A DNA stretch of 64,000 bases from Athripsodes cinereus (taxonomy: Eukaryota; Arthropoda; Insecta; Trichoptera; Leptoceridae), in assembly GCA_947579605.1 (NCBI GenBank), contig OX388305.1, positions 30,641,542-30,705,541 of the forward strand. Reading direction: 5' to 3'. The notes below the pieces were generated by a model. The model had not been told where the DNA came from. It saw only the letters and a list, made by a program, of their open reading frames with translations, and ran no database searches. The position numbers and the translations under genes are program-made. Positions 9,891 through 59,045 of the stretch are shown in pieces; within the stretch, counting starts at the first letter, position 1; every line of letters starts with the position of its first letter.

Positions 9891-10035
9891 CGAAATAAAT
9901 AAAATAAATGTTTTAATCTTCTATTTGTTTATTAGGACATTGTCAATCTTGACTGAAATTGTCAAATAAGACGAAAGACGTCTCTCTCGTCAAATAAACA
10001 AATAGTAGAATAAAACATTTGTTTTATTTATTTCG
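9891..10035. mobile_element. Foldback element with hammerhead-like apex
   Basis: Left arm 9891-9931 and right arm 9995-10035 match as inverted copies over about 41 nt with a few differences; each outer end is a CGAAATAAATAAA-type sequence. The apex holds the core at 9953-9984. Confidence 0.5.
9953..9984 (+). ncRNA. Hammerhead-like core at a foldback apex
   Basis: CTGAAAT (core, two changes), U, short stem II GTC-AAATAA-GAC, GAA, stem III AGACGTCT (perfect palindrome), then C giving CUC. It lies in the loop of the inverted repeat 9891-10035, whose arms would act as an extended stem I. The damaged core suggests a decayed copy. Confidence 0.45.
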
Positions 10036-10654
10036 TTTGAAGCTCGAAGTAGTAGGCTTATCGTTTGTTAGAAACATAGAGGTCAAATTATTATTACATA
10101 CCTACATAGATTAAGACGACTTATGCTGGGATCAAATTCCAGTCCTTACATTATTTAAAATGAATGAAATGTTTAAACTGTGATTTTTTAACTCAGAGTA
10201 CCTGCGAGATACTATAAAATAATACTTTCCAGCGACATCTTTGAAACTGTAAAATTATGCAAAAATTAATCCAAAATCGTCCTCAATATTTTTTTTATGA
10301 TTGTTTCTTATTGCATCCTTGACTCGATCCTGGATATTGCCTATCATAAAACCAACTGCCGCACCCTAACAAGAAAACTGCAACATATAAAATCATGTTT
10401 TGTAGAACATAATGTAATGAAGACATTAAAATTCGATACAACAAACCTACCTTAAGTACATACCACTGCTTACTATCTTTATTGAACTGCTTGTCCGTTG
10501 TACTTATACTTGCTGTATATCTAAGTACCGATGGTTGATTAATTACACAAATTAGTTCTTTATTATGATGTATTTATTAACTTTAAACCCGGCTACTCTT
10601 AGAAAGTAATCAACAAACTGACTAAAACTATGTAAAGAAGGCATCATATTATGG

Positions 10655-10780
10655 GTTAGTTGGAAGATATCGCGCTTCTGCGATAAACTCGCCCATTGCA
10701 CAAAATTTATTTGTCTAAGTAGTTTAAATTGTTTATTTTATTTTGTTGATTTTTTGTGCAATAAAGCTTTTTATTATTAT
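10655..10780 (+). mobile_element. LINE 3' UTR fragment
   Basis: GGGTTAGTTGGAAGA, AAACTCGCCCATTGCACAA, then GTGCAATAAAGC and an ATT tail; a 3' end type widespread in Lepidoptera. Confidence 0.5.
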
Positions 10781-11480
10781 TATCTCATTTATTTAACAAA
10801 ACAATATAAGATTCTACATTTTGAACACAATAATAAGATTAACAATAAAATTTAATTTTAATAAATAAAATATAAAAATATATTATTGAGCACTGTTTAA
10901 TCTCCACTATGTTAGGTTAAATACCGAACGTTTTCGCCTATACTTGTAGGCGAAAACGTTCGGTATTTAACCTAACATAGTGGAGATTAAACAGTGCTCA
11001 ATAATATATTTTTATATTTTATTTATTAAAATTAAAAATGGATTTCCACAGCGTAAACACAAAAACTCTTGAATTATTAATAAAATTTAAATATATGTAA
11101 CATTAAATAACAAAAACCATAAAATATTAAAATAAATTTATATTCAAAATGTAGAACCCCAACATTATTCGAGTTGATTCTTCCATGATGTTCTATGAAA
11201 TAGTACAATCATGGGAGATCACTTACAGAGCTACAGGGACAAAAACCTTCTTACTATCCTGGTGGACGATAGAAGTACGGCCTTCTGCATGCTGTATTTG
11301 AGCCTGTCATCTACTCCCAGTTTTCTGAGATTGCTTGACAGACTCTTAGGTATTAAACCATTCACAGACAACACTATAGGCACGATGATTGTGGTAGGTG
11401 TTCTCCACATATCTTTGATTTCATGAGCAAGATCAAGATATTTTATTATCTTATCTTGCTCAGCTTTATTTAAATTTTCA
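10770..11480 (-). mobile_element. LINE 3' end, interrupted by the palindromic element
   Basis: Same 3' sequence as 29575-30180, with the foldback element between the TSDs 10844-10855 and 11079-11090. The coding part (about 11211-11480, minus) is shorter than in the other copy. Confidence 0.6.
10844..11090. mobile_element. Perfect-palindrome foldback element with 12-bp TSD, inserted in a LINE
   Basis: AATAAAATTTAA flanks the insert at 10844-10855 and 11079-11090. Two perfect 90-nt inverted arms (10851-10940 and 10947-11036) are separated by a six-base loop. A 42-base tail with TTCCACAGCGTAAAC follows only the right arm. The centre reads GCCTA-TACTTG-TAGGC-GAA-AACGTT-C, which is a hammerhead stem II, GAA, stem III and UUC triplet without its upstream core box. 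The homologous LINE copy at 29575-30180 has a single AATAAAATTTAA and no insert. Confidence 0.7.
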
Positions 11481-11679
11481 TCATTATCATATTAATTTAA
11501 CTAGGCAAACAATTTAAGACGACATTTTGACAAACTATAGAGAAGAATAGTTGACATTTCATGTTCGTCAGGGTTTCTCTTGATACAATATTTAATACGA
11601 TCTAAATCTTGTATCGATCTTAATTATTATACGACACCCAAGATATAAATATAATACTATAGTGAAAAATATAAATTAT

Positions 11680-11762
11680 TGCAAAAAAAAAAAAAAAATT
11701 TATTTTATTTTGATTTTTTTAAATTTTTTTTTTATTACCTATTATTTTTTTTTATTTATTTT
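11680..11762. repeat. A/T low-complexity tract
   Basis: A run of 16 A residues followed by about 60 bases almost wholly T and A. Confidence 0.8.
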
Positions 11763-13047
11763 AAAATTTATACAGTAGAAATATAAACTATAGTCAAAAA
11801 TACACCGCTACCGCTGGCGCGAGATTGGTTTGGACGTATTTTTTATTATAATCACTTCAGATCAAGACGAGATTGAGATCGTGTCAAAAGTAACCTTTCA
11901 ATTTCAGATAGAGTCTCATGAAAACACTGGTGGCTTTACCAAATAGAGAGGTTATATATTTAGATAAATATACAACTTAGAAATGTGCTGTTCATTACCC
12001 CGGTAGAGAATAGGTCTTACACTCATTTATATAAGTTTTAAAGTGTCCTGTAAAAGGCAGGGGTTCGTTTAATATTCCATACAAGACATGTAATATCTTC
12101 GATTCAGCTGTGAATGTTGCCATCCATCCTGAATGTCTTCATTTATTTATTTTTTAACTTCTTTCAGAACAAACAGTGATCACAAGAAACAACAACAAAG
12201 CAATATACAAAATGTTTTTTTATTACATACACAGTTAGGAACAACGTGATGTTGTAAATAAATATATGAATGAAAGAAAAGACTTCGTAAAACATAATAT
12301 GTTATAGATTGTTACTGTGCCAACTTTTTTTTTATCTATTTGTACTAAATATTGTAATAACTATGATTACAAAAATTATAAAATAAAATAAGAATATAAA
12401 ATAAAACATCTGCAAATCATCGTTGTGGCAATCCACCTATCCTGATTTTTTATGGCGCAGATAGAACGACCCGTACGTTTATTACGTGTCAACTTGTTAC
12501 CTGGTTTACAGGAGATACCTACTGTAATGATAAAAATCATGTTTTTAGTGTAAAATTGTCTGAAGAATGAAAGCAGTTATTAAATTGGCTATAGTTTAAA
12601 TGTTCATAATAGGTAATAAAATATATATATAAATACACTTATACATATAAATGAAAGGACTCAAAAAACATTTTCACGGAGTTTATCTATACAGGTATGT
12701 ATTAAATACCTATAATTTACGTTAAAGGGCGCCATTGCATGTATAATTATGTATATAATATGACATTATTAAATAGGTGAGTAGATAGGTATGTATGTAT
12801 GTATGAAATTATTACAATCATGTTTATCATAATAATGACCGCTAATAACTCTTCTTACATCGATGTATTTAGATAATTACTTAAAGCTATTATTCTATGT
12901 AAAGTGTTGGTAAAATGTATCCACACCTCTAAGGAATTCTTCAGGTTTCATTTATCAATAATATAATAATATTATCAACTTTACGAGTAGTTTAGTTAAT
13001 TTGTTGAATTGACGTTTATATTGTAAGCCTCCATGTTTATATATGAA
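11763..13047. other. No gene; family C scraps
   Basis: Only degraded repeat pieces at 12003-12145 and 12421-12510. Confidence 0.6.
12003..12145 (+). repeat. Dispersed repeat family C, degraded
   Basis: Keeps AGTGTCCTGTAAAAGGCAGG and CCATCCTGAATGTCTTCATT; the rest has drifted. A further 3' piece lies at about 12421-12510. Confidence 0.4.
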
Positions 13048-13390
13048 AGAAAGCACAGTTGATTTTAGTTTTACTTAATATTTAATTGAATAGTGATATG
13101 GTTTCGACTTATAAAGTCATTGACAAACTAATGTCAAACAGATTACACTGAGAAAAATACTAACGAAACTTATCAGCGATTTGTTTGCGAAAAGTTACTA
13201 TTATAGATTGGTACTTATGAATCGTTTGTACTCTCTCTGGTTCTAATCTGGTAGTACGTAACGTACCAATGATTCGTTGTGAAATTTCGTTAGTATTTTT
13301 CTCAGTGTAGTTTGACAATGACTTTATAAGTCGACACCAGACCACTTTTCAATGTAGTATAAGGTGAAACCAATTGTGTTGTCTTCCATG
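13048..13390. mobile_element. Long foldback element, 13-kb copy
   Basis: Nested inverted segments: AAAAATACTAACGAAA with TTTCGTTAGTATTTTT, AGTTTGnCAATGACTTTATAAG on both sides, and GAAAGAAAGCACAGTTG-type outer ends. The reading frame inside is only a by-product of the palindrome. Confidence 0.45.
13312..13335 (+). ncRNA. Degenerate hammerhead-like core in a foldback arm
   Basis: TTGACAA, U, stem II GACTT-TAT-AAGTC, then GACACC where GAAACC is expected. The mirrored arm at 13100-13122 (minus) keeps GAAACC but has a poorer core box. Same subfamily as 58982-59013. Confidence 0.3.
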
Positions 13391-16239: not shown

Positions 16240-17613
16240 TAAAACATAAATAACTTTTAATATTGATTTTAAATCAAATTAAGATTATAAAACTGTCGGG
16301 TTGTGGTTCATTTAGTTGATTCAGAATCATTCCAAATACAGGGAACTTGTTTATATCCTGTTAATCGGAAAATAAAGTTAAAATATTATTTATAAAAAAA
16401 TAATTTAAAATTTAGGTAATCAATCTAGAGTAATATATATTTTATTACTGACAATAAGACGATACTTACAAGGAACATTACAAATAAAATTTGGCGACGA
16501 TTCTAAAAGAAAAAATCTTTGGAAATAGGACAGTGGACACTTTTTTTAATTTTTCTCTGTTTTTTTACTTAAGTTTTCTGTATTCAAATCCTTCATAATA
16601 AATCAACTTTATCACAAATCGCAGTTATGCCATATCCATTTATTTTTGCTGCGTGCATACAAACTTTTCCTTGCAATATTTTACGCTGAATAAATATATA
16701 ATATGTTTATTGAGTACAAAATAATGTACATAAAATTATGAAAATGTTCCAACATTGTTCTAGTATTCTCTACTAATATCATCAATTATGTAACTTCTGC
16801 GAAAAAAAATAACCACATAAATTTGAGATGAAATAATTTATAATTAAACTAAGCAGTTGAGAAAATTACATTTAGTTCCGTTTATTGAAACAAAAGAAAA
16901 ACAACGTATAAGGTAGTTAGGTACTTACGATTAATTGAAAATAAATTCCAGTCGCTAACAAATTATCTTAATCCAAGGTAGGTAATATTTTTTTCACACA
17001 TTTCTTATATTTTAATTAAAAATATTTATCATGTTATTATTAAAATGTTCCGATCTCGTTACTTCACAAAATTTATAACAATATTTTGGTGGAGTTGTGA
17101 ATTGGCGTTATAAAATAAAGGTTCATGTATGTAATATTCATATAAATACTATTGTTATAGTAATAATGCTAATAATATCTTGATAACAATCCAATAGAAA
17201 CCTCGTAAATTCATTTGTTTAGGTCTGATGATTTCAGATATTATGAACTTATTTTGCCGAAAATATAATAATATAACAACGTTAATAATAATAATTGCGT
17301 CATACCAAATACCCCCATTACATCTTCAATGCCTACATTAAATTTCACATTATATGGCTTGGTTACTCTGGTTATGATGTTTTTTATTCATTGTACATCC
17401 ATGATAAGGAAACAAATAGTATTAAATGATCTAGAGTTTGTGTGTTCACATTTTGAAAAGACATATTAAACATATTTGATATTAACAAAAATACTGTTTA
17501 CTTTTCACTATTTTTTATTACTCGAGTATCATAATCAGTTAATATCTAAATATATTATTAATTTAAAATAAAAGAAACTTTGTATTTTCCATTAGAATAA
17601 CTTTAATCAGTTA

Positions 17614-17646
17614 AAACGTTTTCGGAACTACTTGTTCCATCATCAG
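17614..17646 (-). ncRNA. Hammerhead-like ribozyme core, divergent partner
   Basis: This is the inverted copy of the motif at 17656-17688: CTGATGA, U, stem II GGAAC-AAGTA-GTTCC, GAA, AACGTT, T. The two copies differ by one loop base and are separated by nine bases, so each strand of the locus carries a full core. Confidence 0.5.
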
Positions 17647-17655
17647 TAATTAATA

Positions 17656-17688
17656 CTGATGATGGAACAAGAAGTTCCGAAAACGTTT
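17656..17688 (+). ncRNA. Hammerhead-like ribozyme core
   Basis: CTGATGA (exact core), U, stem II GGAAC-AAGAA-GTTCC with five Watson-Crick pairs, GAA, self-complementary AACGTT, then T completing a UUU triplet. It sits in a foldback element with its mirror copy just to the left. Stem I can form between the outer arms (AATAACTTTA with TAAAGTTATT). UUU is a permitted but weak cleavage triplet. Confidence 0.55.
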
Positions 17689-17924
17689 TACGAAACGAAA
17701 CTGAATAAAGTTATTCTAGTGGAATGTATAAAGTAAAATGGAATTCCACAGTGTTAATCACGAAACATTTGAAAAATTATCAAAATATATGTTAAAACAG
17801 TATTAATATTTTAAAAATATTTCGTGATTACCACATTGTTAGTGGCAATAAAATCAAAGTCCTAGAACCACGTGGCTTGATCAAATTCTCAATGACAGCC
17901 ATGTGTTGAGAGTAAGAGGAACCG

Positions 17925-26357: not shown

Positions 26358-26552
26358 GGTCGTGGAGCACCCGGTGAAGAATTGCTCTCTTACTCTTTTC
26401 CGGAAGTCTTCGAGTGTCCTCTAAAAGACAGGTGTTGAATTTGGGATTAAAAATGTCTTAATTTTTTTCGTACACCTGCCTTCTACAGGACACACGTTTT
26501 CTTAAGGAAAAGAGTCGGAGACCAATTTTAAGCTGGGTGCTCCACGGAAAAT
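26358..26552. repeat. Head-to-head inverted pair of family C 5' ends
   Basis: GTGGAGCACCCGGTGAAG at the left and its mirror CTGGGTGCTCCAC at the right bracket about 195 bases. The pair can fold into one long hairpin. Confidence 0.5.
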
Positions 26553-27281
26553 AACATTCATTAAATATTATAAGTTTCCTTAATTTTTAGTTAGTCTTCT
26601 AGTAGGTATAAAAATATTTCCACCAATTTCTTATATTTAAACCGAACCGCCCTTGAAAAGGAACGTAAGCAATCAAGAATCAAAACTTATATTCCATCTT
26701 ATCAAGAAATCAATAGACAAAATGAATCATTTAATCATCTCATGATTAGAATTTTAGAAATCAAAAAAATTATAAAAGAAGTTTATTTCGATGAACTGAT
26801 TCAGCCCACAATGTCTCCATGTCGTTGTACATTTTTATTGATGTTAAGTTAAGTGTTATCACAATTTGTTGATCTCTCTCTGCTCCCGAGATCTGTTGGA
26901 ACAATGTCACGGCATCATACAACGATTCGAGTATCCTTCATCCCATTCTGACATCTTGTCTGCAAATATAAAAAGAAAGAGACACACGTTTACAATCTCA
27001 TTTTTTCACCTTGCACAGGTGAAAAATACTTGGGACTACTATTTGAAGAATTTGATATTGAATTTAAAGGGCGCAACATTAAATTCTTTCAATTAATTAA
27101 TTGGGAACATTAATTTGTTAGAAATGACATTGTGATATTATCTGATATCATCAATATATAAAACATAAAAGCTAATCACCGTATTATTTTTATTGGTAAT
27201 AATTTGTAACAAAATTATCGATCTGATTTGACACGGCGAACATTTATTTTATCTTTACCCATCGCAATGTTATAATATTTT

Positions 27282-27440
27282 GAAAATATTATTATAAAAT
27301 TAAAAACACTGTTATTCCACTATGAGAACTGTTTAATCAATGTAGTTGAAAACGTTAGAACGATAGTAGAATTAAACAGTGTTTTTAATTTTATAATAAT
27401 CTTTTATAAAGCATTTCCACAAAGTTACTCTAGAAAATAT
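27282..27440. mobile_element. Foldback element with degenerate hammerhead core
   Basis: Arms ATTATTATAAAATTAAAAAC and its complement bracket the core; the tail is CATTTCCACAAAGTTACTC. GAAAATAT at 27282-27289 and 27433-27440 may be an 8-bp TSD, but it is short and AT-rich. Confidence 0.4.
27320..27357 (+). ncRNA. Degenerate hammerhead-like core
   Basis: CTATGAG, then stem II AACT...AGTT with a 13-base loop, GAA, AACGTT and A (UUA triplet). It is enclosed by arms with the shared AAAAACACTG / CAGTGTTTTT segment. The core box is poorly kept, so the call rests on architecture and the stem III palindrome. Confidence 0.3.
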
Positions 27441-27597
27441 AGAATATTTATATTATTTTTCCTTGTCACATCCTTTGTACCTTATAATATATAACTATTG
27501 CAATTACATATGTAGTGAATAACTATATTTTTTTAGACATATTTTTCAATTAAATGACAAAGTGTGAATGATTAAAAAAATGAGTAACACATAGTAA

Positions 27598-27775
27598 AAT
27601 TAAAAAATTAATAAGTAAAAAATACTTAAGAGTTAGAATACGCATGTATGAATATGGGCTTGCAACCCGAAACACGTGTAACTGATAAATAAAGAAATTT
27701 AAAACTCTTAAGTATTTTTTACTTATTAATTTTTTAATTTAAAAAATGGAGTTTTACTCATTTAGTGAAAACAAA
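27598..27775. mobile_element. Foldback element with hammerhead-like apex
   Basis: The arms 27598-27634 and 27703-27739 are perfect inverted copies (37 nt). A 3' tail AAAATGGAGTTTTACTC follows the right arm, echoing the ATGGAnTTCCAC tail of its relatives. Confidence 0.48.
27648..27680 (+). ncRNA. Hammerhead-like core at a foldback apex
   Basis: ATGAATA (degraded core), U, stem II GGG-CTTGCAA-CCC, GAA, self-complementary ACACGTGT, then A giving GUA. It is enclosed by 37-nt arms (27598-27634 and 27703-27739) that pair as a long stem I. Confidence 0.42.
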
Positions 27776-28133
27776 ATTAGTGACATAGTAAAATGTTTGA
27801 TAAGCTCGCTCTATATAGGACTTTGGCTTATCTTATTTTTACACTTAACTTTTTCTAAAAGTACTTTTTCACGTAAGTTTTACTTTTATATACTTATGTA
27901 AATGGTTTTGTTAGAGTTTAGGATTGGCTGGAAGACGTTGCTCAGCAACAAGTCCGTTTTTAACCTAATTTTGTTAATTGTCATGTTGCGTAATATTATG
28001 TATTATTGTCTATGCTTATGGAAGACGTTGCCCAGCAACAAGTCCACCCTTTCGTCCAGATTTTTTTTGTATTATTCTTTTACTATCATGTTGTGTTTTT
28101 TTTTTAATTTGGCCAATAATGTTTTTTTTTTTA

Positions 28134-28612: not shown

Positions 28613-29574
28613 TTTCCAGTGACATAAAGCTTTTCAAGTCGATATAATATTTAAACAGAATAATATGTCCTTAGCGCTGAACATCATATTCAAAGCGAAA
28701 AAATACTTAGTTCATTTGTATCGATTAAAAGATTATAGAATTACAATAATAACGATATAAATACATAGTGAGTAAAGTAATAATAATAACAATACTATAT
28801 TATGAGAATGAGATGAGATGAGATACTCGGCATCTATTTATGTATTAGTAAGCAACCATGTATCTAGCATTTAACTATATGAGATGGATTGTAGGTGCTT
28901 TAGATCTTGGCAGTGGTGAGGCTTAACTTTGATGAAAAGACGAGAATTAGAATAGAAACTGAGATCTATATCACTATACAAATGTCATTAGGTACTTGAT
29001 GATGATTTTTACTATTAAATTGGTCTCTTGCCGAATTCCACATTACGTACTTATAATAAGGTATGAAGGTATATATTCGACACCTTTGTGTATGTAGGGT
29101 AGGTATGTTGAAAGTTTGAGAGACAACCTCCGCTCTTGTGGTGGTTCAACTCACCAGGTGTAGAAAAACATTTTAAATAGGTAGGTACTACTGTACTGTC
29201 TGTAAATACTTACATATTTTGATTCGTATCTATTCGTACATTATCATGTATGTAGGTTTGAAGTGTTAATGATATGTTTGGTTGAAACCTTTGGCCGCAT
29301 ATTGAAATATAAAGTTTCTAGTCATTGCTAGAGTAAGAAATTATTGGCTGACATTAAGTTAACAAAACAATATCAACTATCCAGTTACATGGGCCAACAA
29401 TTAGAAATATTTCAAATATCTTTTTTTTTTAGCTTATAACACGAAGAAAGTGATATTTATCCGTCCCCTATAGTTCCCGGTCCCCTTGGAGTGTTAGGTG
29501 TGTGGATCGTAGTTTTTTTTTCATTGTGATTTGTGTAGAGATTTTTCTTATCATTTCTGTTTTTATTATTATTA

Positions 29575-30180
29575 TCTCATATCTCATTTATTAAACAAAA
29601 CAATATTTGATTCTACATTTTGAACACAATATAAGATTAACAATAAAATTTAAAAATAACATTAAATAACAAAAACCATAAAATATTAAAATAAATTTAT
29701 GTATATTCAAAATGTAGAACCCCAACATTATTCGAGTTGATTCTTCCATGATGTTCTATGAAATAGTATAATCATGGGAGATCACTTACAGAGCTACAGG
29801 GACAAAAACCTTCTTACTATCCTGGTGGACGATAGAAGTACGGCCTTCTGCATGCTGTATTTGAGCCTGTCATCTACTCCCAGTTTTTTGAGATTGCTTG
29901 ACAGACTCTTAGGTATTAAACCATTCACAGACAACACTATAGGCACGATGATTGTGGTAGGTGTTCTCCACATATCTTTGATTTCATGAGCAAGATCAAG
30001 ATATTTTATTATCTTATCTTGCTCAGCTTTATTTAAATTTTCATCGTGCGGTATAGTGATGTCTATGATGTATGTTTTACGGCATCTGCGATCAACCAAC
30101 ACAATATCTGGTCGATTAGCTATAATAGTTCGATCAGTTTGAATTGGTCGATCCCAGTAGAGTTTAGATCCATTATTTAT
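29575..30180 (-). mobile_element. LINE 3' end with reverse-transcriptase C-terminal frame
   Basis: Minus strand, about 30176-29794, reads continuously: RPDIVLVDRRCRKTYIIDI, HDENLNKAEQDKIIKYLDLA, VIVPIVLSVNGL-like segment and STRIVRRFL. This is the C-terminal region common in insect non-LTR retrotransposon ORF2. A 3' UTR with AATAAA and an ATAATA tail follows. The frame is open for about 128 codons, so the copy is fairly young. The copy lacks everything upstream. Confidence 0.65.
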
Positions 30181-30764
30181 TATTATTATTATTTGTGTAT
30201 AGTGTTAAACTGTTAATGTGGCGTGGTTAGATGGAAGAATTCACTAAAAAGTCATAATCTCTCCACTACATATTATCACAATTTGTCTTATGCATGTGCA
30301 AGAAGAATAAAATAAATAAATAAATAATATTCATTCAATTCCAGTAGTTTTGGTCAATTAGCCCTTCAGGCCTGCCCATAAGGACAATTTCGGTTCAAAA
30401 ATGCAAATAAATAGGTGTCTATGACACCTGAGATATGCAGTTGTGAGGCTATTATATCTTCAATATATTATATTCATTATGTCAATTTTCATATTTATTC
30501 AAAATGACTTTTATCCTCTTTGATCGCAAACAATCAGTTAAGTAATGAAACTAAACAGATATGTACGGATGTACATAATAATGTATATAATCTAGGATAA
30601 TCATTAACACTATTTATATAATAGTACGTCAAACCATAACAGTGTTTTTTTCGATTTATGGGCTTTATGTAACCAATACTTCTTGAAGTACAATAGAAAA
30701 CAAATTATTCAAGGAAATCATAATAAATAAATAAATAAATCATAATAAATCATAATCCTGTATA

Positions 30765-31996: not shown

Positions 31997-34900
31997 CCTA
32001 ATTATCATTGCCGTGTGATCATAAGTGAAAATAAAGACAATATCGTTGGTTATCTCATTAAGTAGAACTGCAGATGTGATTGTATAATTAATATAAACGG
32101 CTAATTTTAGAAACAAATTTATGGTTAACATATTTTTAAAATATAATATCATCTCGTTTGTAAATGATTTTATAATATTCATTTCATTTCATGTATTAAC
32201 AATAAATTACTCATGCAAATTTTTGCTTTCATTCAAATCCGCGCTTTTTAAATTATTCACCTACTTAATTTTTAAGAATTAACTTGTATACCAGCTAAAA
32301 CAAAAATACACCTTATTTTTTCCAGATTTACGCGATTTACCGTTCGTCATAAATCTAGAATTTTATCACAAACAAAATTTGTTAAATTACATAGTTGGTT
32401 CGTAACGTATAATTTTCACCTACTAGTAACATAATGTGTTGTTGTTGCAAGAAACAAAGAAAATATATTGTGAAAAATAAATAATAATAAAAAATGCAAT
32501 AATAAAAAATGTTACTCTGTTAATTTTCGTGTTAAAGTTACATTTATTACTCTCAGTGGATGTTAGAAATTATAATAAAAGGAATGTTAGGTGTAAATTG
32601 AGATATGAAACGGCCCTGTAAGTCCCGCCCTATTCCTTATCCAGACCTGACTTTACGACCGCACTCAATTATTACTCTACAGCAGGCAATAACGTAGGTT
32701 GAAAAAAATCCTATGCAGAAATGGTCACCATTCCTTACTTGTTTACACTACGAGTATAAATTGTATATAGTAAAGAAAAATACGAACTTTCCACTATAAT
32801 GTAATTTCAAGCTTTTATTTCGTCTCTAACTTGAAAGAAGAATCATTTACTGAATACAGTATCTGCAATTTAAATAGGTATGAGATTTTTGGGAATACAC
32901 AAAATCAATTTATTTTAATACATGTTACAATAACGGACATAACGGTGAGCTTTTTCAATAAACCAAAATAATTTTGTTTTGAGTATAGGGTGAAATAAAA
33001 CCTTTCTCAAATTTCTATACACCTTTTTTGACTGAGTTTTCTTACTTTACTTTTCGTATGACCCGATCAAAACATATATCTTCATCCGAGCTGGCAAACT
33101 ATGTTGTGTCCTCTAAAACCTTGTTTCCAGAAAGGCTAACCAGTTAATCATCTCTGGTTTTCATTGAAGAATGTTCTGAAAGCAGCCGATTATTTTTTAA
33201 GAAGATGAATAAGTTAATAGCTCAAGAGACACAAACTTCTAGAATGTTGAATAAATTGTTTGTTAAATACTTTTTTCATAAACCTCTTTCATCATTGATT
33301 ATTATTTGCAGATCGAATAACCTCCCATTCTGTCCATTAGGCGTGAACTAACTACCCTACACTAGTAATGATGGAAGAGTTAAATAATTCAACTAAAAGA
33401 TGTAGATATTGAATTACACTATTTGAGTTATTTTATTTACCATTTAATTTGTGTAAAAAAGGCAGTTAAGTCATAGAAAATGATTTATATTTCACATAAT
33501 AATATATTTAGTATGATATAATTATATTATTTTAATTATATACTGGCTGCCCACCCTTTTGTTAATAAAAAGTGTGTAATATTATTTTAAAGTCATCATT
33601 TTACAATACATAATATGTAATATTATTGTTTATGATTATTACTACTAACTGCCTAGATATGTATTTACGAGTATCGTATGGGGAGTGGAGTAAGATGTAT
33701 TGAAGTATAGGAACATCTCGAATTTACGGAAAAACATTCGCATAATGATAGTAAGCAATATCGCATAAACTCAAATATCTTTTTATTGGACTATTTTTTA
33801 ACACAGCATAACATGCATTATCCAATTCACACAGATCGTGCAAGTCCCAAACTCTTATTTGAATATTGTATGTAGGTATTATGGGTACTAACCGTGACGT
33901 ACCTACGTGTCTACTGCAGAACCTGATGATGGAGTTCCAAGCAACTCCGAAAGCTTGTTCGAAAAACAAATTACGCGATGTAACCGCAAAACATAACTCT
34001 AAAACATATATACCTCGTCGCGAAAAACTATTCAATAACATAAAATATTAAATTTATACATTAACATAATAAATTTAAGTGTATCGTGTGCACAGGCCCA
34101 TTTTTATTTAGGTACCTATCTATGGTGATCCCCTAACCAATGGTGATTTTGTACCCACAATTTTCTAAAACTGAAAGGAAGCATATAAAAAATAATTTGC
34201 AGAAACACTCACAGATGATTGGGAAAACAAATAGACGCATTTTGAAAAAAATAAAATTATAACTCTTCATACCTATAGAAAACACTTAGAAATAATATAT
34301 GTATTGAATTTCTGAATATTTTTGAAGCCACATTATACTTAACAAACAAATCAACGAATATGTATAAATCAAGGATGGCCAACTAATACGCACTTTTTAA
34401 TAATAGTTGGTACAAGTACCCGTTACTTTTTTGAAAGAGGTATTTTGAGAAAATATTCTTAAGAAAAACCGAGGAGTTTTGAAACATTTCAAATTCCTAT
34501 ACCATTTCGAAAATTTGACAACGGGGGGTAGAAATTTTAAGGTGAAGTAAAATTATCAAATGTTCCACAAATGGAATGTATTGTTGTACGGCCCGGTAGG
34601 AAATCTCATTGTGAAATTTGACCCGGCTGCTGAAAAGGTTGGCCATACATGATATATACCAAACACAATCGTACAGTACCTACCAACAGTTTTTGACAGT
34701 ATATCAGATTATTGAGAACCGCGTAATTGAAAGTTCGTGATCATTGAGGTATCACAATATATGTGTATGTTATATTTCTTGTAATAATATTTTGGACAGA
34801 TGTTTTGACCATTACTATTTCCGGTTCACTTAATCCTTCTGTAAAGTTGCCGCCACTGACTGCCCTCTTAAACATTAGTAGATGATAATATATCTAATAT

Positions 34901-35345: not shown

Positions 35346-35369
35346 TGCTTTACTATACCATCACGACAT

Positions 35370-36110: not shown

Positions 36111-36289
36111 TTGAAAAAAATTGAATATCTATTTTTTTATTTATTTTATTCTTCTTGCACACCATCTTTCACATAACAAAATTCACAAATTAGTTTGAAT
36201 AAGAAAAAATGTGATGATATGCAGTGGTGAGATTAACAATTTTTAAAATGAAACACAATATATAGGTAGTTATTCCACTATTGACTTTA

Positions 36290-36347
36290 TTTATTTTTGC
36301 GAGCCGGCTTTCAAGAGCTTCCGCTCTCATCGTCAGGCAAAAATAAA
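36290..36347 (-). ncRNA. Hammerhead ribozyme, complete three-stem type I form
   Basis: Read on the minus strand: stem I 5' strand TTTATTTTTGC (36347-36337); core CTGACGA (36336-36330); one extra U; stem II GAGAGC-GGAA-GCTCTT (36328-36313); GAA (36312-36310); self-complementary stem III AGCCGGCT (36309-36302); C17 at 36301, giving the cleavable triplet CUC; then stem I 3' strand GCAAAAATAAA (36300-36290). Stem I pairs perfectly over 11 bp. All core residues known to be needed (CUGANGA, GAA, NUH) are present. The loopless stem III is the form known in Penelope-like elements and retrozymes, where two copies pair. The U between A9 and stem II is unusual, and the closing stem II pair is G-U. Predicted cleavage is between 36301 and 36300. 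Activity is inferred. Confidence 0.8.
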
Positions 36348-36479: not shown

Positions 36480-36722
36480 TTATGAGCCGCTGTGGACGGT
36501 CTTATATCAAACATCTCAATATCAATATATATGCTTTTGCTGTTGTAGGACCAGTTATGTGGAATCGCCTACCGGTGCTGCTGAGAGATGGTCAGACGGT
36601 CACTAGCTTCAGAGGCAAATTAAAAACTAAACTCTTCACTGGCGCCCTTAAGACGGTCTAGAGACTGTAAAACGGCGTCATAAATAAAATAAAATCATCC
36701 AAAATCATCATCATCATCATCA
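36480..36722 (+). mobile_element. LINE 3' end inside the hammerhead element
   Basis: Encodes VVGPVMWNRLPVLLR and SFRGKLKTKLFTGALK then stop, the usual last residues of a non-LTR reverse transcriptase. An ATCATCATCATCAT tail follows. A minus-strand scrap of the same end is at 47440-47520. Confidence 0.6.
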
Positions 36723-37804
36723 AACATCAAAAATAAATAAAGTCAATAGTGGAATAACTATATATTGTGCTTCATTTTAAAAATTATTAATATGGACTCC
36801 CACCAAGAACCTTCGGTCGATAAATTAAACTTTATTAGGTGAGATTAACACTAAATGGTTCTAAAATTTCTTCCATTTAACCACGATATATTCACAGAAA
36901 AAAATGTTCAGGTTTATAAAATAAACTCAAATAAGCAACAAACTCGTGTTGTCAAAGAGGGTTAGGTAGGCAAAAAAATATGAACTTCCAATATTCCAAA
37001 CTTGAAATATAAAATTCGAAATTTATTTAACAACGATTACATATTTTTATTCCTTAATAACCTTTACATATTTGGCCTGCTAGCTACCCTACTTGTATTG
37101 TATATTACGTTTAAATATGGAAAATAAGTATTTATTTTATGTACCTACCTACTAAATTATATTAAACTTTTCAATTATGGGAAACAAATTTGGTTTTCCT
37201 AGTAATATTCTATCAATCCACCCTCATAACAAAATATCATTATTCAATATTATATTATAAAGTGCGGCGGTGATGTTAAATCATTGCATAACGAGACATG
37301 GAGTAAGTATAGCAAGTGGCTATACAAAGTTTGTATGAACTGTGTATAAAGTGGGCAGTAGATTTATGACATTTTATCCCCGAATCATGAACATCATCTT
37401 TACCCCTAAATTGTACAACAGCCTTCTGAAATGATGTTGTAGGGTCTATAAAAAATAGGGATGCAAATCGATGTTGATATATATCGAAAATTGGCCTGAA
37501 TTTCATTTTATCAAACATGTTTTCCTTAACTATGCTTTGTAAGTAGAATAACAATTTATCAAAAGAAGATTGGATGTTCAGTTCTACTGTGAATAGGTAT
37601 ATTATTACTTGATGCTCAATATTAAAAGTGCAACAAAAGTGATTTTTAAAAATTATAAAAACACACTTTAATGCCGTAAAGCAACATTTGATATTTGACT
37701 GATGTATATCAATTATTGTAAGGCACTATAAACAGTTTAAAAAACAATTTTATAATGAATAGAAATAACTGTTTTCCCATCACCTGGACAATATCGTCGA
37801 CCCA

Positions 37805-41163: not shown

Positions 41164-42127
41164 TGTATATAGTAAAGTAAACTATAAGAAATATTATTTT
41201 GTGTCAATTCAGCCACAGTTCACTAACTAAAAGTTGAAAATTTATTTTTTCACAACATTAAGGTCTGTCCATAAGATATTTAACGTTAATTATCACAAAA
41301 TACAAAAGTTAAATAACATTAGCATATTATTATTTCTTTACTGGATTGCATGTGTATTTACATTAAAATAACTACGGCTATATGTTATTATTGACATTAT
41401 CTTTTTAAAATAAATTGATCAGTAAACCAATAATGATACGTTATACGTGTAAAGTATGTACTTACGAGTGACCATTACAGACACCTTTCAATACAATCAT
41501 TAAGTTACATATTATTTCAAGTTTTGTTTAACCCGACTTTGCTCATTTAGAGACAGCGTTAAGTTGAACTTTTCACATCTTACTGGATTTTTTCACCTGC
41601 TTGAGTGAAGATAAAAAAAAGATATTATGAATATTATTTAACGTACACCTCATCCACACAACCAACACACAATGCAAACTAACAAGAATTGGAGGGATTG
41701 ATGAACGCACCATGAGTAAAGTGCACTTAAACCAATTCGTAAGCATTGGAACACCTTTCCTGTTTCATTCTAAAAGGAGTTTGCACGCAGTTTGTATGTT
41801 GGTCGTGCAGATGAGGTGTCTGTTGAACAAAATTTTTAAGGATTTTCCTAACTATAAGATAAGTGTTTTCCTAACAAATGGAAAAATTGGAACTGAATTA
41901 TTTCAAAACTGGCAACACTTCTTTGTCAGTTCTTTCCAAAGTGATCTTATGTGAAATATTGTTTATACATTTAAGTATTGTAGTCTAGCTTTTATTATTG
42001 GCATATGTACCTAATGTTAAAGCTAAATTTATCAACCGACGGTTCTCGGTGGAAGATCATAGAAATAAGTTATTTATAAAAGAAGAAATATGGATACTTC
42101 ACAGTTGACTTCATTGAAGTCAAGAGT

Positions 42128-42230
42128 AAATAAAGTCAATAGTGGAATAACTATATATCGTGTTTCATTTTAAAAATTATTAATACGAACTTCCACCAAG
42201 AACCGTCGGTCGATAAACTAAACTCTATCA
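42128..42230 (+). mobile_element. Single-arm fragment of the 36-kb foldback family
   Basis: One copy of the arm from AAATAAAGTCAATAGTGG through the CCACCAAGAACCGTCGGT tail. A reversed piece of the same tail lies at about 42031-42058. Confidence 0.45.
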
Positions 42231-44148: not shown

Positions 44149-44642
44149 AAATACAATACAAGTTTTTGTATAGATGTATGTAGGTACTCTTCCGGGTTTA
44201 CCGCGTCTCGTCGATCTTCCTCCTCTTTTTTTTAGGTTTGGTATAAGAAGGTATACTTTTGAAAATGACTCAGTCAGTAGAGTCGAAATGTAATGAAGGA
44301 GGAGGAAGATCGACGAGATGCGGTAAACTCGGAATAGCACATAAATGAAGACCGCGAAAGCCCGCAACAACTAAGTGTTTGTATGTTTTTTTTCTTCTTT
44401 TCTTAGTAGTTTTTATTAGTACTTTGGTATAATAAATGTTTTAAAATATATTTTTGTGTGTTGGTGATGGCTACTTGTACGATATCCAAGTGATACTTAA
44501 ATAATTGACTTAACTGTGGTACATGTTTGTGGATGACAGCTGAGTTATGAACGACTTATTTTTATTTTTGTAAACCATATTTATAGTTGTTGTCTGTTTT
44601 GTACTTTTTACCAATAAATAAAATTAAAAAAAAATACAATCA
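44149..44642 (+). mobile_element. Insertion in an older LINE end, with short TSD and inverted segment
   Basis: AAATACAAT occurs on both sides of a segment of about 475 bases that interrupts a LINE 3' end. That LINE end is intact at 45085-45230 for comparison. The segment holds 35-nt inverted arms (44190-44224, 44299-44333) and the degenerate hammerhead-like core. It ends with AATAAATAAAATTAAAAA, a poly(A)-like retroposon end. Confidence 0.45.
44259..44288 (+). ncRNA. Degenerate hammerhead-like core
   Basis: TTGAAAA, U, stem II GACTC with loop AGTCAGTA and GAGTC, GAA, then ATG. It lies between inverted arms 44190-44224 and 44299-44333 inside an inserted segment. Stem III is not recognisable. 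Confidence 0.28.
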
Positions 44643-47439: not shown

Positions 47440-47922
47440 GATGATGATGATGATTCTGGATGATTTTATTTTGACGCTGTTTAACAGTCCCTAGACCGTC
47501 TCAAGGGCGCCTATTATTTTTATTATAAAATTTTGAAAGTACTTTTAACTGTCACAAGATTTGATAAAAATGCGAAACTTTTATGTGAGATCCAATTGTA
47601 GGTAATATTGTCACAAATTTTATTCACTAATTCATACATTTTTAAATTTGAAATTTTTAACTAGATTAAAAGTAATAACACCCAAAAATATTAACTTTAT
47701 AAAACTATTGAAACCTAAAACAATGTATTAATATTTTGTTTATTTGAATCATTATTAGTGATAATAATATTTAATTTTGAAAAATGAGAAGTCAGAGGTT
47801 TCAGGCAGCTACTACAAGCGCCATCCACCGACCGATTCAGGTATTGATTCAAATAATATATTACTCGTCAGAGATAGATAGCATAAGTTGGACTGCTTTA
47901 CTTTTAACTCACGAAATAAATT

Positions 47923-48065
47923 TAATAATTTTTAAAAAGAAACACGATATATAGTTATTCCACTATTGACGAGTGGAATAACTACTCGTATATATCGTGT
48001 TTCATTTTAAAAATTATTAATATAAACTTCCACCAAGAACCGTCGGTTGATAAATTAAACTTTAT
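47923..48065. mobile_element. Palindromic fragment of the 36-kb foldback family
   Basis: Two inverted copies of the TTTAAAAnGAAACACGATAT end are joined with almost nothing between them (centre near CTATTGACGAGTGGAATAAC). The CCACCAAGAACCGTCGGT tail is present on the right. No ribozyme core remains. Confidence 0.45.
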
Positions 48066-48214
48066 ATAGGTACTTATTTAAATTTGTTACAGACTTTTTA
48101 TTTATTTATTTTTCTCAAAATACAATACAAAATATATAAAAACAAAATTAGTAATGCTAACCAAGCCGGTGCTAGGAAAAATATCTACAAAACAAAACGT
48201 GACAAATCATAGTT

Positions 48215-50879: not shown

Positions 50880-51128
50880 GGCCGGTGTGGCGCGGAGGTA
50901 ACGCTGTTGCCTTTGAGTCACGAGGTCTCGGGTTCGATTCCCGGCCAGTGCAAAGTGAAGAATAACCTTTTTCAAATTGTTCTGGGTCTGGGTGTTACAT
51001 GTATAATTATGTGTTTAGTGCATTGTATATATGTGTATCGTCGCGATGGTACCCATAATACAAGATTCACATCTTAGTTTGGGACTAGCTCGATTTGTGT
51101 GAACTATCTATGCATGTTATGATATGTT
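50880..51128 (+). mobile_element. tRNA-derived SINE (family A), best copy
   Basis: The head has an A-box-like TGGCGCGGAGG and a B box GGTTCGATTCC at normal tRNA spacing, so RNA polymerase III promoters were present. The body continues past tRNA length with a TGTTACATGTATAATTATG segment to GAACTATCTATGCATG. It is a SINE, not a tRNA gene, because the acceptor stem is not closed. Confidence 0.75.
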
Positions 51129-53984: not shown

Positions 53985-54200
53985 ACTTATATTGTGAGGA
54001 GACGATTCTGGAGAGGCCATGTGGATAGGATGGCTGAAAACGGGATCGCCTAAATTGATGCAAATAAGACACCGGCTGGCTCACGTTCACGAGGAAGATC
54101 AAAAAGATGGAAGGATAGCTGGTCCTCGGTATCATTAGATGGAACAACTTCCGAAACTACAGATCAATGATCTATTACATGAGGAAGAAGAAGAATAATT
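53985..54200 (+). mobile_element. LINE 3' end
   Basis: RFWRGHVDRMAENGIA, stop, AGSRSRGRSKRWKDSW, later a stop and GAAGAAGAAGAAT tail: reverse-transcriptase C-terminal signature. Confidence 0.5.
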
Positions 54201-55344
54201 AATATTGCGTATTAAGGACTTTATTAAATGGTTCAATGAATAACATGACAAAAGACTATTGGGATAAAAATAATATTAATCTTGCATAGATATCAAAATA
54301 AAATATGAACAACCTCAGATGTTGAATTTGAGCCCCATTGGTAATAATAATGCGGATGAACTGTGCGTGAAATAATCTGCAGGGAGTCGATTTATAAAGA
54401 TATTACACAACACAATGGTGTCATACGACAACACTACACACAATATCTACTAGCAAATACCTACATATTACATACACACAATCAGTTGGTATCTACATTC
54501 TACTGCATAGTAGGAATGTATTGTGTGGGGTGACATGATACCCCACAAGGAAACAATCAGTATAATAACATTGTATGCTCATTTAAGGGTTAAATTTGTA
54601 ATAGATACAAAAGTCCTATTAAACCCATTTTAATAAAATAATATTTTATGGAGATGGCGTGTTTTTTATTGTACGTCGCATGATGCAGGAAAAAATTATA
54701 ATTATATAAATTTGCACAGCCGATAGATTGAATATGACTGTTATTTGATAGTTTGTACACGTGGAAAAGAAAAATAAATAAAAGAAAAGTAGTTTATTTT
54801 GGTCCATCCCACAGTTCACCTTCTTTGTGTCATTAAAAAAATAAACAACGGATACACGATTAATTAAAAATATGCAAACTTGTGTCTTATAAAATAATTG
54901 AACACTCCATAAAATAAAGAAAGTAACATTTATTTGTGATGCAACAATTTTCCCGTTTGAAAGATTACATCAAATTATACTCTATACATAATTATCAAAG
55001 TTGATTTGTTTAAGCGCATACAAGTACATGGTATGTACCTATCTTAAATAGCACATATACAGTATATAGGAACCTAATAACATTGTTTGCAAGTCTATGA
55101 ATCCTACTAATGTTTCCACACTTCCACTACTTAATGACTTCCCTGTCAAATCATTTCTATTGCGCATCTTTCAATTTTTTTGTTTTATTTTATTATCTCA
55201 CAACAGCTCGTAACAGTGGTTTAAAACCATCTACAACAATGATTTGTAAATATAAAACTATTTGATTTTTTTTTATGTCGACTAGAAATATTAAATGTTT
55301 TACTTACATATCTCAAATAGATTCAACCTAACTTCAATCATGTG
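54201..55344. other. No gene seen
   Basis: AT-rich unique-looking DNA. Confidence 0.55.
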
Positions 55345-55445
55345 CGACGTGCGAAATCAGCGACGTGGCGTGTCTTTCATTCTCAATGGTTTACCATGTT
55401 TATAACATGCAGTTAGTTCTCCACTTTTGGGGAAATAAGTCATGG
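55345..55445 (+). repeat. Dispersed repeat family C, degraded 3' half
   Basis: GTTTATAACATGCAGTTAG then CTCCACTTTTGGGGA and TCATGGTG match the 3' half of the family. Confidence 0.35.
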
Positions 55446-55489
55446 TGTAAATAAATTAATTCGTTAGACTAATCAGATATCTCGATTGG

Positions 55490-55735
55490 AGAACCATGTT
55501 TACACAATCCAACATTGTGCAAAATCTAATCGGAAGATGTGAGAATGGCGTCCCAACGCTTACGAATTGGTTCTAGGCTGGCTTAAGTGATCACTCTCGG
55601 TATCTATAGACAACCTTCACCAATTCCACCATTCTCACTGTCACGATGTAAGGTCCATCAATCAAAAAACGCAAACCATAGAAGCACAAACTGAACGCGA
55701 TCTCCCGTCTAAATGGCGCTTTAAAAAATTAGTAA
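55490..55735 (-). mobile_element. Family D retroposon
   Basis: Reverse-strand copy sharing CAACGCTTACGAATTGG and GGCTTAAGTGATCACTCTC with 6418-6617. Confidence 0.5.
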
Positions 55736-56344
55736 TTATTCAACAATTTGTTGGAGTCAACCCATCACTTTAGGAATTTCTATTCTTCTCAAGACCATCC
55801 ACTCGTTTGCGAGTGATTTAGATTTAAGGATTTTTTTTTACCTCATAGTTTGAAATCTTTATGACGCGACCAGAAATTAAATCCTGGATTTGGTTTGAAA
55901 CTTTATTATAGCCATCATTCAGTTTACATAGGGGTATAAAAGGTAAAAATAATATTATAATCTACTTACCTCATTTTTCCTTAGAACTGTTACACACTTT
56001 GTAAACAAGTATCGTCAATCCAGAGCGATAATGTGCGAATTGAGTCACTCCTTGTTGCATATTCTACCAATGGAGTCGCCTCTCATTACGATATTAATAA
56101 CACTTTCATCTTATCATATTTTTATTCTTATTATTATATCAAAATTCATAGTGCTAGAAAAATATATTAATATCGACTGATATTAAAATGAAATCTTAAC
56201 AGATCAGTACAAGATTTATAATATATAAAAATAAGCTGCAAAAGCAATTATTATAACAGTTTTATGACTAACATAATATTGTGGAGTTGATTCAGATTTT
56301 TTCTACTACAGCATAGTGTTGTAGCAGTGACAAGTAATGACTAT

Positions 56345-56500
56345 ATAGAATGATTGGTGTTGCTAATGAATTTATTCCATGCAGATGTGAGTGTCCCTGG
56401 ATGACGACTGGATGAATGTTGTCGGCTGCCTCCGCCACCACTGTGTGTGGTCCTAATCATGTGTCACATTTAGAAATGACTCGTTGAAACAATATGAGCT
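56345..56500. promoter_or_regulatory. Candidate regulatory island with Runx-like site
   Basis: Unique stretch 3.6 kb from the T-box stop. TGTGGTC at 56446-56452 fits a Runx core, and GATGTGAGTG resembles a T-box half-site. Confidence 0.22.
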
Positions 56501-56693
56501 CCTAATTATCTCGACTTGAAATGACACCCAACATTTGTAGGTAGGTACCTACATAATATACAAAATCATACGAAATGGTAAACAAATGTCATCTCGAATA
56601 TTTTCAATGGCGAATAGTGAGATGAAAATATTCTAATGCAGGTATTCGTTTTATTATTAATTTATCGTTAGGTATTCTTCAAACTACTATTAC

Positions 56694-56836
56694 TATACCA
56701 TCACGGCATATCCCACAAGTGGAGTAGCTAGCAGACCAGCTGCAAGTAATAAACATGCAAGCTGTCCTCCCTGTGCTAACAAAATAAAGATATTCAGGAT
56801 GGGTGGCAAACCTCATCGCTGAATTTAAGATGTACA
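56694..56836 (-). repeat. Dispersed repeat family C, 3' half
   Basis: Reverse-strand 3' half, ACCATCACGGCATATCCCAC to GGCAAACCTCATCGCTGAAT. Confidence 0.55.
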
Positions 56837-58933
56837 ATGTCTTTATTTTTTTGAACTATTTGGATTATAAATTTAGCACGGTCTAAATAGATATATACCG
56901 ACCTTATTAATTTTAATAAATACACATGTACCTAAATCTTATATAAATTCAGTACCATATTGAGGACATCGCTCTTCTAACATAGTTTACCGCACCATTG
57001 AGACGGATGCTGCATCAAACGGCACAGATTAAAAAATCATCCGACATATGTACATAGATCCATGGGTGATGGTGTATCATACGGAGTTCATGAACAGTTC
57101 GGTTGATACTTTTCAGGTTAGTTTGAACATATTGCCAACAAATAGCCAATCAATAAAATTTTATACTGTAGTAAAAAGAAAACTCACAGATGTATAGCAA
57201 AAAAGGAAAATATGAGATCACGCCATGCCAGTAACGGAGAAGTGAGCAATTAAAGTTTGATTTTACTGTACTTCTTTTTCAAATACGGTGTTCTATTGAA
57301 ACTTGTGACAAAAATTTTCCCTTAACTTGAATATGTCGCCTGAATGCTACTAACACATTTTTTCTTATACATTTTTTTTTATCGAAGAATGTTTCCTAAG
57401 AAATGTCATAATAAGAAGAATTCAGTTCATATTTCATTGTATGATTTGTTGGTGTCACATTTAATGACATTTGAGTAGGTACCTACTAACTAACAATATA
57501 CTTTTTTTGTTTGTATGTTTGTTCCCATTTCTTTTCCTGTGAAATATTTTGTTAGCATACATAACCTTTCACTGTGAATGATAATTCTAGCAGAAAAAAT
57601 AAATATACCTATCTATCACTATATCTATTCCGTCATAAGACTTTCATCAGTGAATAAAATAATATATTTTTTTGAATAAGTAAATATTCTACTTATTGCT
57701 TTTATTTTTCTCTTAAAACTCGTTATACCTATATCCAAACTAATAACTTGGTTATTCATATTGAAAAATAATATACAGTAATCATCATCGAACTATGCAA
57801 AGAATTTTATAATATTTCAATTGGATTGAAAAAAATTAACAAATATTTTCATAAGTGAAGAGAAGTTGCTTCGTAGCCATCAAATATTTCTTCAGGTATC
57901 TCCACTTTGGGGTAGACAACGAAAACACACTAAAATAATAGATATACATAACGAACATTTATTTCTTTTTCATTAAAACACTATATTATAGTTTTCACTA
58001 TTAAATAATATTACAGAGTTATCATTATATTATCTTACATCCACGATATTATAACACATATTTAGGTATATATAGGTAGGTCTATACAAAATTATTTAAT
58101 ACATACATAAAACATAGTATAAATACCAATACAGGTATAATTATAATTATAAATAGTTTGCATACGTATGTGTACACTACACATCTCTAGGAATCTTTGC
58201 GACACAATGATTATTTAAATATGATATAATATAAATACTTAGATTACATAAAATATAAATTGTACCGATAATTACATTAATTTCTATTAACACCATAACG
58301 ACACATTGACTGCACTAGGAATTTTTAAATTTTCTTTTGTATATTTCTCTATTTACATTTTAAGATATTTTTATAGGTATGTGGGAAGCAATATGAATGC
58401 AATTTATATATCACCTTTAGATTTCAAATAAAAGGTAGGCATATATTTTAAAAAAATTACAGAGAGATTCAAAATATCCTTTGAATTGATTTTTGGTTTT
58501 ACATATTGGTTTATGGTTTCTTTCATAACCAAAGTATGGTATGGTTACACCTTCATTACTCTTGTATTGAATTTATAATGAAAATTTAATTTTGAATATT
58601 TTTGAGTACAATGCAGTGAAACATTGAATCAGTTATACAAATCATTTTGGGAATGTATGGTTTTTCCAGAAAAAAGGTTGCTTTGTATAAATTACAAATA
58701 GTTTTAGTTATATGCAACTTTATTCCACCCATCTACTCTTATTATAAAAGTGAAAGTAGTGGGTACATTTAGAAAAAAAATTAGTTCTGCAACTTTAAAA
58801 TAATTATATGTTTTTACTAGTAATGACTTCAATAAATGATTTTTCATTCGAACAGAGACAAATAGCTATGTATAAATAATTATTGTGGTGTCCGAAAAAT
58901 AAATAAAAAATGATATTTATCTTTGAATGTGTG
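56837..58933. other. No gene; low repeat content near H15/midline
   Basis: AT-rich and nearly free of recognisable repeats; could include distal 3' UTR or flank of the T-box gene. Confidence 0.45.
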
Positions 58934-59045
58934 GAAGAAAACACAATAGTTTTAGTTTTACTTAATATTTAATTGAATAATGATCTGGTTTCGACTTACG
59001 AAGTCATTGTCATACCTAAAACTAAAACAAACTGTGTTTTCTTCA
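58934..59045. mobile_element. Short foldback copy downstream of H15/midline
   Basis: Outer arms GAAGAAAACACA and TGTGTTTTCTTC with TTTTAGTTTTA / TAAAACTAAAA inside. The left half matches the 13-kb element closely (CTTAATATTTAATTGAAT). Confidence 0.5.
58982..59013 (-). ncRNA. Degenerate hammerhead-like core
   Basis: Minus strand: ATGACAA, U, stem II GACTT-CGT-AAGTC, GAAACC, then AGATC. Stem II is perfect, while the core has C3 and G8 changed. The stem III palindrome (perhaps once ACCGGT) is mutated. It sits in a foldback of about 112 bases just downstream of the T-box gene. Confidence 0.4.

Follow-up and report, generated by a model that had tools for sequence, protein, structure and literature searches.

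The window, a 64,000-base stretch of contig OX388305.1 (68% A+T) that was analysed over its whole length, contains a series of short elements, many of them foldbacks, that carry cores resembling the hammerhead ribozyme. A first-pass annotation had listed nine such cores, and all nine are present near the coordinates given, except that those placed at 17614, 36290, and 58982 lie on the minus strand, where their boxes start at 17646, 36336, and 59013. The best reading of these elements, named A to F in the table, is that they are pseudo-long terminal repeats (pLTRs) of Penelope-like elements (PLEs), present as many diverged copies that are solo, snapped back, and mostly decayed.

We defined a canonical core as CTGANGA, zero or one base, a stem II with five or more Watson-Crick pairs, and GAA, and we also scored the presence of a palindromic stem III. 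The scan resulted in four matches, at 17656(+), 33923(+), 36336(-), and 17646(-), against a mean of 0.025 and a maximum of one in 200 dinucleotide shuffles. A palindromic stem III accompanies all four and none of the shuffled matches. They represent three independent loci, as 17656 and 17646 form the two halves of a single palindrome. The common layout proposed for the nine cores is canonical at 36336, 17656, and 17646, whereas the others are decayed, and the core at 33923 had been missed. Besides the canonical cores, we count six decayed cores and one half core. When the box was relaxed to four of its six positions, the window still exceeded the shuffles, with a palindrome of at least four bases (14 matches versus 3.6; 0/200 shuffles as high) or of at least six (5 versus 1.03; 1/200). 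With three of six positions and a palindrome of at least six, there was no clear enrichment (8 versus a mean of 4.9; 25/200). Because the enrichment fades as the box is relaxed, the cores at 9953, 27320, 27648, 44259, 58982, and 13312 cannot be claimed from the motif alone. They stand on their context, i.e., the tail, the arms, and the duplications.

The features of a type I hammerhead (CUGANGA, stem II, GAA, A15.1-U16.1, H17, and an open stem I) are found at 36336, 33923, and 17656/17646, the exceptions being a U inserted after A9 and the lack of stem I pairing beside the box at 17656. They are incomplete at 9953, 27320, 27648, 44259, 59013, and 13312. At 36336, stem I comprises at least 11 pairs, on both sides, and the predicted cut falls between 36301 and 36300. 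Seven of the nine tabled cores (36336, 33923, 17656, 27648, 27319, 9953, and 10952) have a palindromic stem III without a loop, and the base after it is not G; the palindromes are AGCCGGCT, AGCT, AACGTT, ACACGTGT, and AGACGTCT. The cores at 44259, 59013, and 13312 have none, and 13312 has GAC in place of GAA. In 8 out of 10 cores, the U after A9 belongs, as the central base, to an ATG that overlaps A9-U-G10.1.

The first-pass annotation had also reported that stem II differs in sequence between copies and keeps its pairing. We assessed this in a table of eight cores, with the loops cut out, against 500 shuffles. The table leaves out 17646 (the twin of 17656), 27319 (box short by one base), and 10952 (no box), and two of its entries, 59013 and 13312, are not independent since they belong to one repeat family. 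An alignment of the cores with MAFFT, loops included, was poor and was excluded from the counts. Paired cells amount to 87.5% (60.4% in shuffles), 14 cells are altered on both sides (5.0 in shuffles), and the covariation score is 0.774 (0.221 in shuffles); none of the 500 shuffles was as high in any of these measures. Sliding the partners by one to three columns lowered the covariation score to 0.036-0.257. Cores were picked partly for stem II pairing, so that the 100% pairing of this stem is partly by construction. Letter changes at constant pairing, the C3-G8 pair, and stem III were not selection criteria of the earlier list, although our own scans also required stem III. Pair 2 of stem II is A-U, G-C, or U-A, and pair 3 is C-G, A-U, or G-C. 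The C3-G8 pair of the catalytic core is C-G in three of the eight cores, U-A in two (44259 and 13312), A-U in one (27648), and unpaired in two. The U-A and A-U states may be natural compensatory variants of this pair. Overall, the covariation of stem II is supported and, among the cores of the window, extends to stem III and C3-G8.

A 3' tail with the sequence ATGGAWTTCCACARYGTWAA, in some cases decayed, is common to elements C, D, E, and F and is found at six places. A profile hidden Markov model of the tail recovers only its six source tails at E<0.1; the next match in the window has an E-value of 0.17 and the best one in the reversed window 3.4. Four of the six tails are preceded, 54-79 nt upstream, by stem II, GAA, a palindrome of six or more bases, and a non-G base. 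Shuffles of the same stretches carry this motif in 108 to 234 of 4000 cases (2.7-5.9%), and 2.3% of all 200-base windows on both strands carry the stem II-GAA-palindrome motif. The two tails without it (5914 and 1272) correspond to 5'-truncated copies. An ATG opens the shared tail at 11038, 5921, 17738, 1279, 27746, and 36792, and reads M-D/E/N-F/S-H/Y. We considered the tail as the start of an open reading frame (ORF; M-D/E/N-F-H) and downgraded the idea, because agreement with the published PLE is closer for the ATG at stem II and because codon-position counts are indecisive.

For one of these elements, the window holds a filled and an empty site. C1 interrupts a repeat (10768-11482) whose other copy is uninterrupted (29563-30045) and provides an empty paralogue, with 97% identity between 11073-11482 and 29636-30045. 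At the filled site, ATTAACAATAAAATTTAA / ATTATTAATAAAATTTAA is repeated on either side of the element. Among 15 loci tested, 8 have plausible flanking repeats of 12-19 bp, scored against 150 random pairs (see table). The interrupted repeat, taken as 29563-30204 and 10768-11482, is 97% identical over about 410 bases. Its minus-strand frame 29794-30204 gave no Pfam match and resembles the C-terminal part of a non-LTR retrotransposon.

Table. Elements and cores in the window, with their flanking repeats (positions; identical bases; random pairs as good, out of 150, or p).
Feature	Positions	Strand	Description	Flanking repeat
Element E2	1209..1309	+	5'-truncated relative of E1 with tail (1272-1311); no core	TAATATCTTTTTT (1196-1208, 1310-1322); 13/13; 1/150
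Element C2	5870..5960	+	5'-truncated short foldback; tail as in C1 (5914-5962)	TAACATGATTAT (5858-5869, 5961-5972); 12/12; 1/150
Decayed core in foldback 9891-10035	9953..9984	+	CTGAAATT-GTC-AAATAA-GAC-GAA-AGACGTCT-C	none found
Element C1	10856..11072	+	arms 90/90 identical (10851-10940, 10947-11036); tail 11031-11079; half core 10936-10961 (stem II, GAA, AACGTT, C)	10838-10855, 11073-11090; 16/18; 0/150
Family B large inverted repeat	13065..13373	+	same family as 58932-59015
Element D	17556..17777	+	tail 17733-17779	TATCTAAATATAT (17543-17555), TATCAAAATATAT (17778-17790); 12/13; p ~0.03
Inverted second D core	17614..17646	-	inner palindrome arms 36/37 identical
Canonical core, element D	17656..17688	+
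Element E1	27257..27441	+	arms 33/36 identical; tail 27402-27450	27238-27256, 27442-27460; 16/19; p ~0.02
Decayed core, element E1	27320..27357	+	box short by one base; stem II AACT/AGTT; AACGTT; A
Element F	27601..27782	+	arms 38/38 identical (within 27597-27740); tail 27740-27787	ACATAGTAAAAT (27589-27600, 27783-27794); 12/12; 1/150
Decayed core, element F	27648..27680	+	ATGAATA-T-GGG-CTTGCAA-CCC-GAA-ACACGTGT-A
Canonical core, not in foldback	33923..33956	+	CTGATGA-T-GGAGTT-CCAAGC-AACTCC-GAA-AGCT-T; stem I GAAC/GTTC
A1 body downstream of predicted cut	36232..36300	-	stops without the tail of its relatives
Canonical core, element A1	36301..36336	-	CTGACGA-T-GAGAGC-GGAA-GCTCTT-GAA-AGCCGGCT-C, then GCAAAAATAAATAAAG
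Copy A2	36727..36840	+	start within two bases of A1 cut position; tail present
Copy A3	42015..42230	+	foldback, arms 45/57 identical; no intact core
Decayed core in foldback 44178-44346	44259..44287	+	TTGAAAA-T-GACTC...GAGTC-GAA; foldback arms 44/51 identical	44160-44171, 44373-44384; 11/12; p ~0.08; graded possible
Copy A4	47922..48071	+	head-to-head foldback, arms 31/32 identical, plus body and tail; no core
Decayed core	58990..59013	-	ATGACAA-T-GACTT-CGT-AAGTC-GAA	59077-59093 with 58906-58922 (minus); 15/17; 0/150; graded possible

In some foldbacks the arms are unequal. In C1 and F, the right side has an extra 40-50 nt, the tail, which is absent from the left arm, and the left arm directly adjoins the flanking repeat. 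The apex of the foldback lies inside the stem II hairpin (10941-10946), just upstream of the box (17649-17653), in the body (47954-47988), far downstream (5892-5895), or around the decayed core, as at 27320 and 27648. The suggestion that the arms are an extended stem I applies to 27320, 27648, 9953, 44259, and 58982; it does not apply to 13312, where the core sits inside the arms, nor to 17656/17646, where the core is inverted and duplicated. The inverted repeats at 26361-26546, 41625-41839, and 7763-7894 have no visible core and overlap other dispersed repeats, showing that not every foldback in the window belongs to the family. Two other origins of the hairpins were discarded. MicroRNA precursors were rejected because the Rfam matches at 44183-44341, 10898-10989, and about 17610-17690 are below the gathering scores and reflect long hairpins. 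Twin priming by a long interspersed element (LINE) was rejected because it would invert a segment without duplicating it, whereas the segment inverted in these elements occurs in direct orientation as well.

Family A includes copies at 36232-36336(-), 36728-36840(+), 42120-42228(+), and 47972-48071(+), along with an inverted piece at 47922-47970. The copy with the canonical core (36336) ends about 40 nt before the point reached by the other three, as if it lacked an optional tail. The 36728 copy starts within two bases of the predicted cut of the 36336 core; this is a single case and may be due to chance. Directly before it, 36641-36718 shares with 47440-47511 the 3' end of another repeat, ending in (ATC)n. 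In family B, the arms of 13065-13373 enclose the core at 13312, decayed to TTGACAA-T-GACTT...AAGTC-GAC, and also its partner at 13126(-).

These features can be set against published systems, as far as the accessible portions of the cited papers describe them. In the Anolis PLE (PMC11167929), the ORF begins where stem II begins; within this ORF, the hammerhead cut falls at 26 bp and reverse transcription starts at 111-118 bp. Inserts have an optional tail of 30-40 bp that corresponds to the stretch between two reverse transcription start sites. Mutants of the hammerhead core left insertion in vitro unaffected, and cleavage required protein (PMC11167929). Like the Anolis element PAc, the present elements have a hammerhead in the pLTR and an ATG at the start of stem II, and family A shows an equivalent of the optional tail (the difference of about 40 nt). 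Their inserts end roughly 85-130 nt into the frame. The distance from the ATG to the end of the insert is 114 (17656), 107 (44259), 84 (59013), 128 (27648), and 98 nt (36336), in the five cores that have such an ATG and to which we could assign an end, the end at 36336 being judged from the loss of homology. This range of 84-128 nt is near, not identical to, the one given for Anolis.

The sections available on the Penelope elements of Adineta (PMC3846280) describe inverted pLTRs, target-site duplications of 8-10 bp, palindromes at the inverted junction, and an optional tail, and argue for self-priming, placed on an antisense template, from the head-to-head arrangement. We find the same head-to-head arms, palindromic junctions, and duplications, although the latter are longer here (12-19 bp). 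Minimal type I hammerheads of PLE pLTRs, with their weak helix III and dimeric action, have been reviewed (PMC7761336, in part). Hammerhead repeats of Aedes, another insect case, have a palindromic stem/loop III region like the one found here, and a dimeric form was proposed in the portion of that study consulted (PMC3088659). The closest known systems are thus elements of the Penelope/Poseidon group, with Anolis PAc and Adineta Penelope as examples. The present elements differ from these in that only pLTR-sized pieces were seen, with no PLE ORF among the 10 scanned, in that the host is an insect, and in their loopless palindromic stem III of varied sequence.

We consider it quite probable that the elements are short retrotransposed pLTR ends of PLEs, and that the foldbacks arose by self-priming. 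The Penelope connection raised in the first-pass annotation is supported. Its further proposal of an undescribed hammerhead retroelement holds as regards the retroelement, since the copies look retrotransposed rather than transposed by terminal inverted repeats (TIRs). It does not hold as regards the kind of element, which is best read as one already known: solo, often head-to-head, PLE pLTRs. What is new here is the many diverged short copies, the loopless palindromic stem III, and the arms grown from stem I.

A mechanism can be proposed on this basis. From 5' to 3', the RNA would consist of a minimal type I hammerhead, the overlapping AUG (A9-U-G10.1), and then about 85-130 nt, and would end where reverse transcription starts, inside the would-be ORF start. 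With its loopless palindromic stem III, the hammerhead is predicted to be active as a dimer or with the help of a protein. A PLE endonuclease/reverse transcriptase acting in trans would nick AT-rich DNA and prime cDNA synthesis there, with duplications of about 12-19 bp as the result. The 3' end of a stalled cDNA could then fold back, at stem I, at stem II, or at the point of truncation, and prime itself. Copying in inverted orientation would yield a foldback with its arms head to head, the left one without the 3' tail. If synthesis ran through the entire hammerhead before stopping, the stem I complement would pair and be extended, which would explain why arms may resemble an extended stem I. 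Such folding back of first-strand cDNA would be of the same kind as the self-priming argued for Adineta. The foldback would then probably be a side effect of second-strand synthesis by self-priming, not the defining structure.

Several observations weigh against this interpretation. Searches of the whole window and of the three canonical loci matched no Rfam hammerhead family, even at E-values up to 10; they were run without a positive control for catching PLE-type variants. No PLE reverse transcriptase or GIY-YIG domain was found with Pfam in 10 of the 15 window ORFs of at least 110 aa. The frames that start at the overlapping ATG have 3-46 codons (46 at 36336, running past the assigned end, 40 at 33923, and 3-27 in the other six), and coding is not demonstrated. 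Differences between tails number 48, 35, and 54 at codon positions 1, 2, and 3 (104 each), which leaves coding versus RNA structure undecided. Two covariation measures do not stand out: pairs with changes on both sides (4 versus 3.2; 210/500 shuffles as high) are not beyond chance, and further pair types (10 versus 7.2; 25/500) are barely so at best. The stem II-GAA-palindrome motif has 17 matches in the window, 8 in the elements described and 9 without sign of an element. No worthwhile flanking repeat was found at 36336, 33923, 42015, 47920, 9891, and 13065 (p 0.10 to 0.87), and a search of other zones around 33923 and 36336 again gave none that is convincing. At 36728, a match (p ~0.02) is off the expected ends and was not accepted. 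Finally, separate A copies resemble each other more closely (88-91%) than do the two arms of 42015-42230, and some foldbacks may therefore be inherited and not freshly snapped back. Relatives were also sought in viral contigs: two patterns gave none and one gave three, a number in the range of chance by a rough estimate.

A self-sustaining lineage of pLTR-only elements of about 100-220 bp is a rather unlikely variant of these ideas. In it, the hammerhead would serve both as a dimeric, self-cleaving RNA motif that overlaps the start codon and, in single-stranded cDNA, as a hairpin (stem I or stem II) dedicated to priming the second strand, and foldbacks would be the normal product. We find it improbable that the foldback itself was inherited, i.e., that an ancestral RNA with both arms and the hammerhead at its tip was copied whole by a LINE- or PLE-type enzyme, short left arms reflecting 5' truncation. 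The arms of 44178-44346 are well diverged, as are those of copy A3, and part of an arm recurs in the two copies of family B (13065-13373 and 58932-59015), as this scenario would have it. Yet the apex varies within a family (C1 has it at the stem II loop, C2 far downstream, and A4 in the body), and the arms of C1 and F are identical throughout.

Animal retrozymes are a very improbable source. These are tandemly repeated non-autonomous units that contain type I hammerheads and propagate via circular RNA. According to the part of the literature available on them (PMC7229834), they share with the present elements the type I hammerhead, short, AT-rich, non-coding units without LTRs, and duplications of more than 4 bp. 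Unlike their tandem units, the copies here are single, end in a tail with an ATG, and are often snapped back. None of the 12 tandem-repeat rows of the window overlaps a core (the row at 5872-5922 overlaps the coreless C2), which led us to reject a tandem retrozyme, and the weak palindromic helix III is closer to the PLE-type minimal variants as reviewed in the portion of PMC7761336 at hand. Last, a group of TIR DNA transposons or miniature inverted-repeat elements with a hammerhead-like inner part, suggested by the long inverted arms around the core at several places, is scarcely credible and was rejected, as was a TIR-transposase origin of the arms, given the unequal arms with the tail on the right side only, flanking repeats of 12-19 bp instead of a fixed short length, canonical cores in excess of shuffles, and a core (33923) outside any foldback.

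The short diverged copies, with arms that start at stem I, suggest that the hammerhead has a role at the level of DNA, in self-priming. They supply possible natural compensatory variants of C3-G8 and a pair of filled and empty sites. They also call for caution in annotation, because snapped-back ends of retroelements can present themselves as foldback or MITE-like repeats, or as matches below threshold to microRNA-precursor models. Primary papers on PLE hammerheads include those of Cervera and De la Pena (2014) and Lunse et al. (2017). The role of minimal hammerheads in PLEs is called a mystery in the accessible part of a review (PMC7761336). Among the open-licence papers listed by our searches, none gave an account of hammerhead elements in Lepidoptera.

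The window also includes exons of an insect TBX20/midline-type T-box gene, at 60090-60620 and about 61337-61489 on the minus strand. Named matches to its first exon include the Lepidoptera Bombyx mandarina and Eumeta japonica, with higher scores in beetles and stick insects; the placement in Lepidoptera advanced in the first-pass annotation is thus plausible but not shown. A family of short interspersed elements (SINEs) headed by a tRNA is present at 6985-7213(-), 50881-51128(+), and 33799-33871, in copies about 80% alike. The tRNA match lies at 7142-7213 (34.1 bits), and the hammerhead at 33923 is preceded, at a distance of about 50 nt, by a fragment of the SINE tail.

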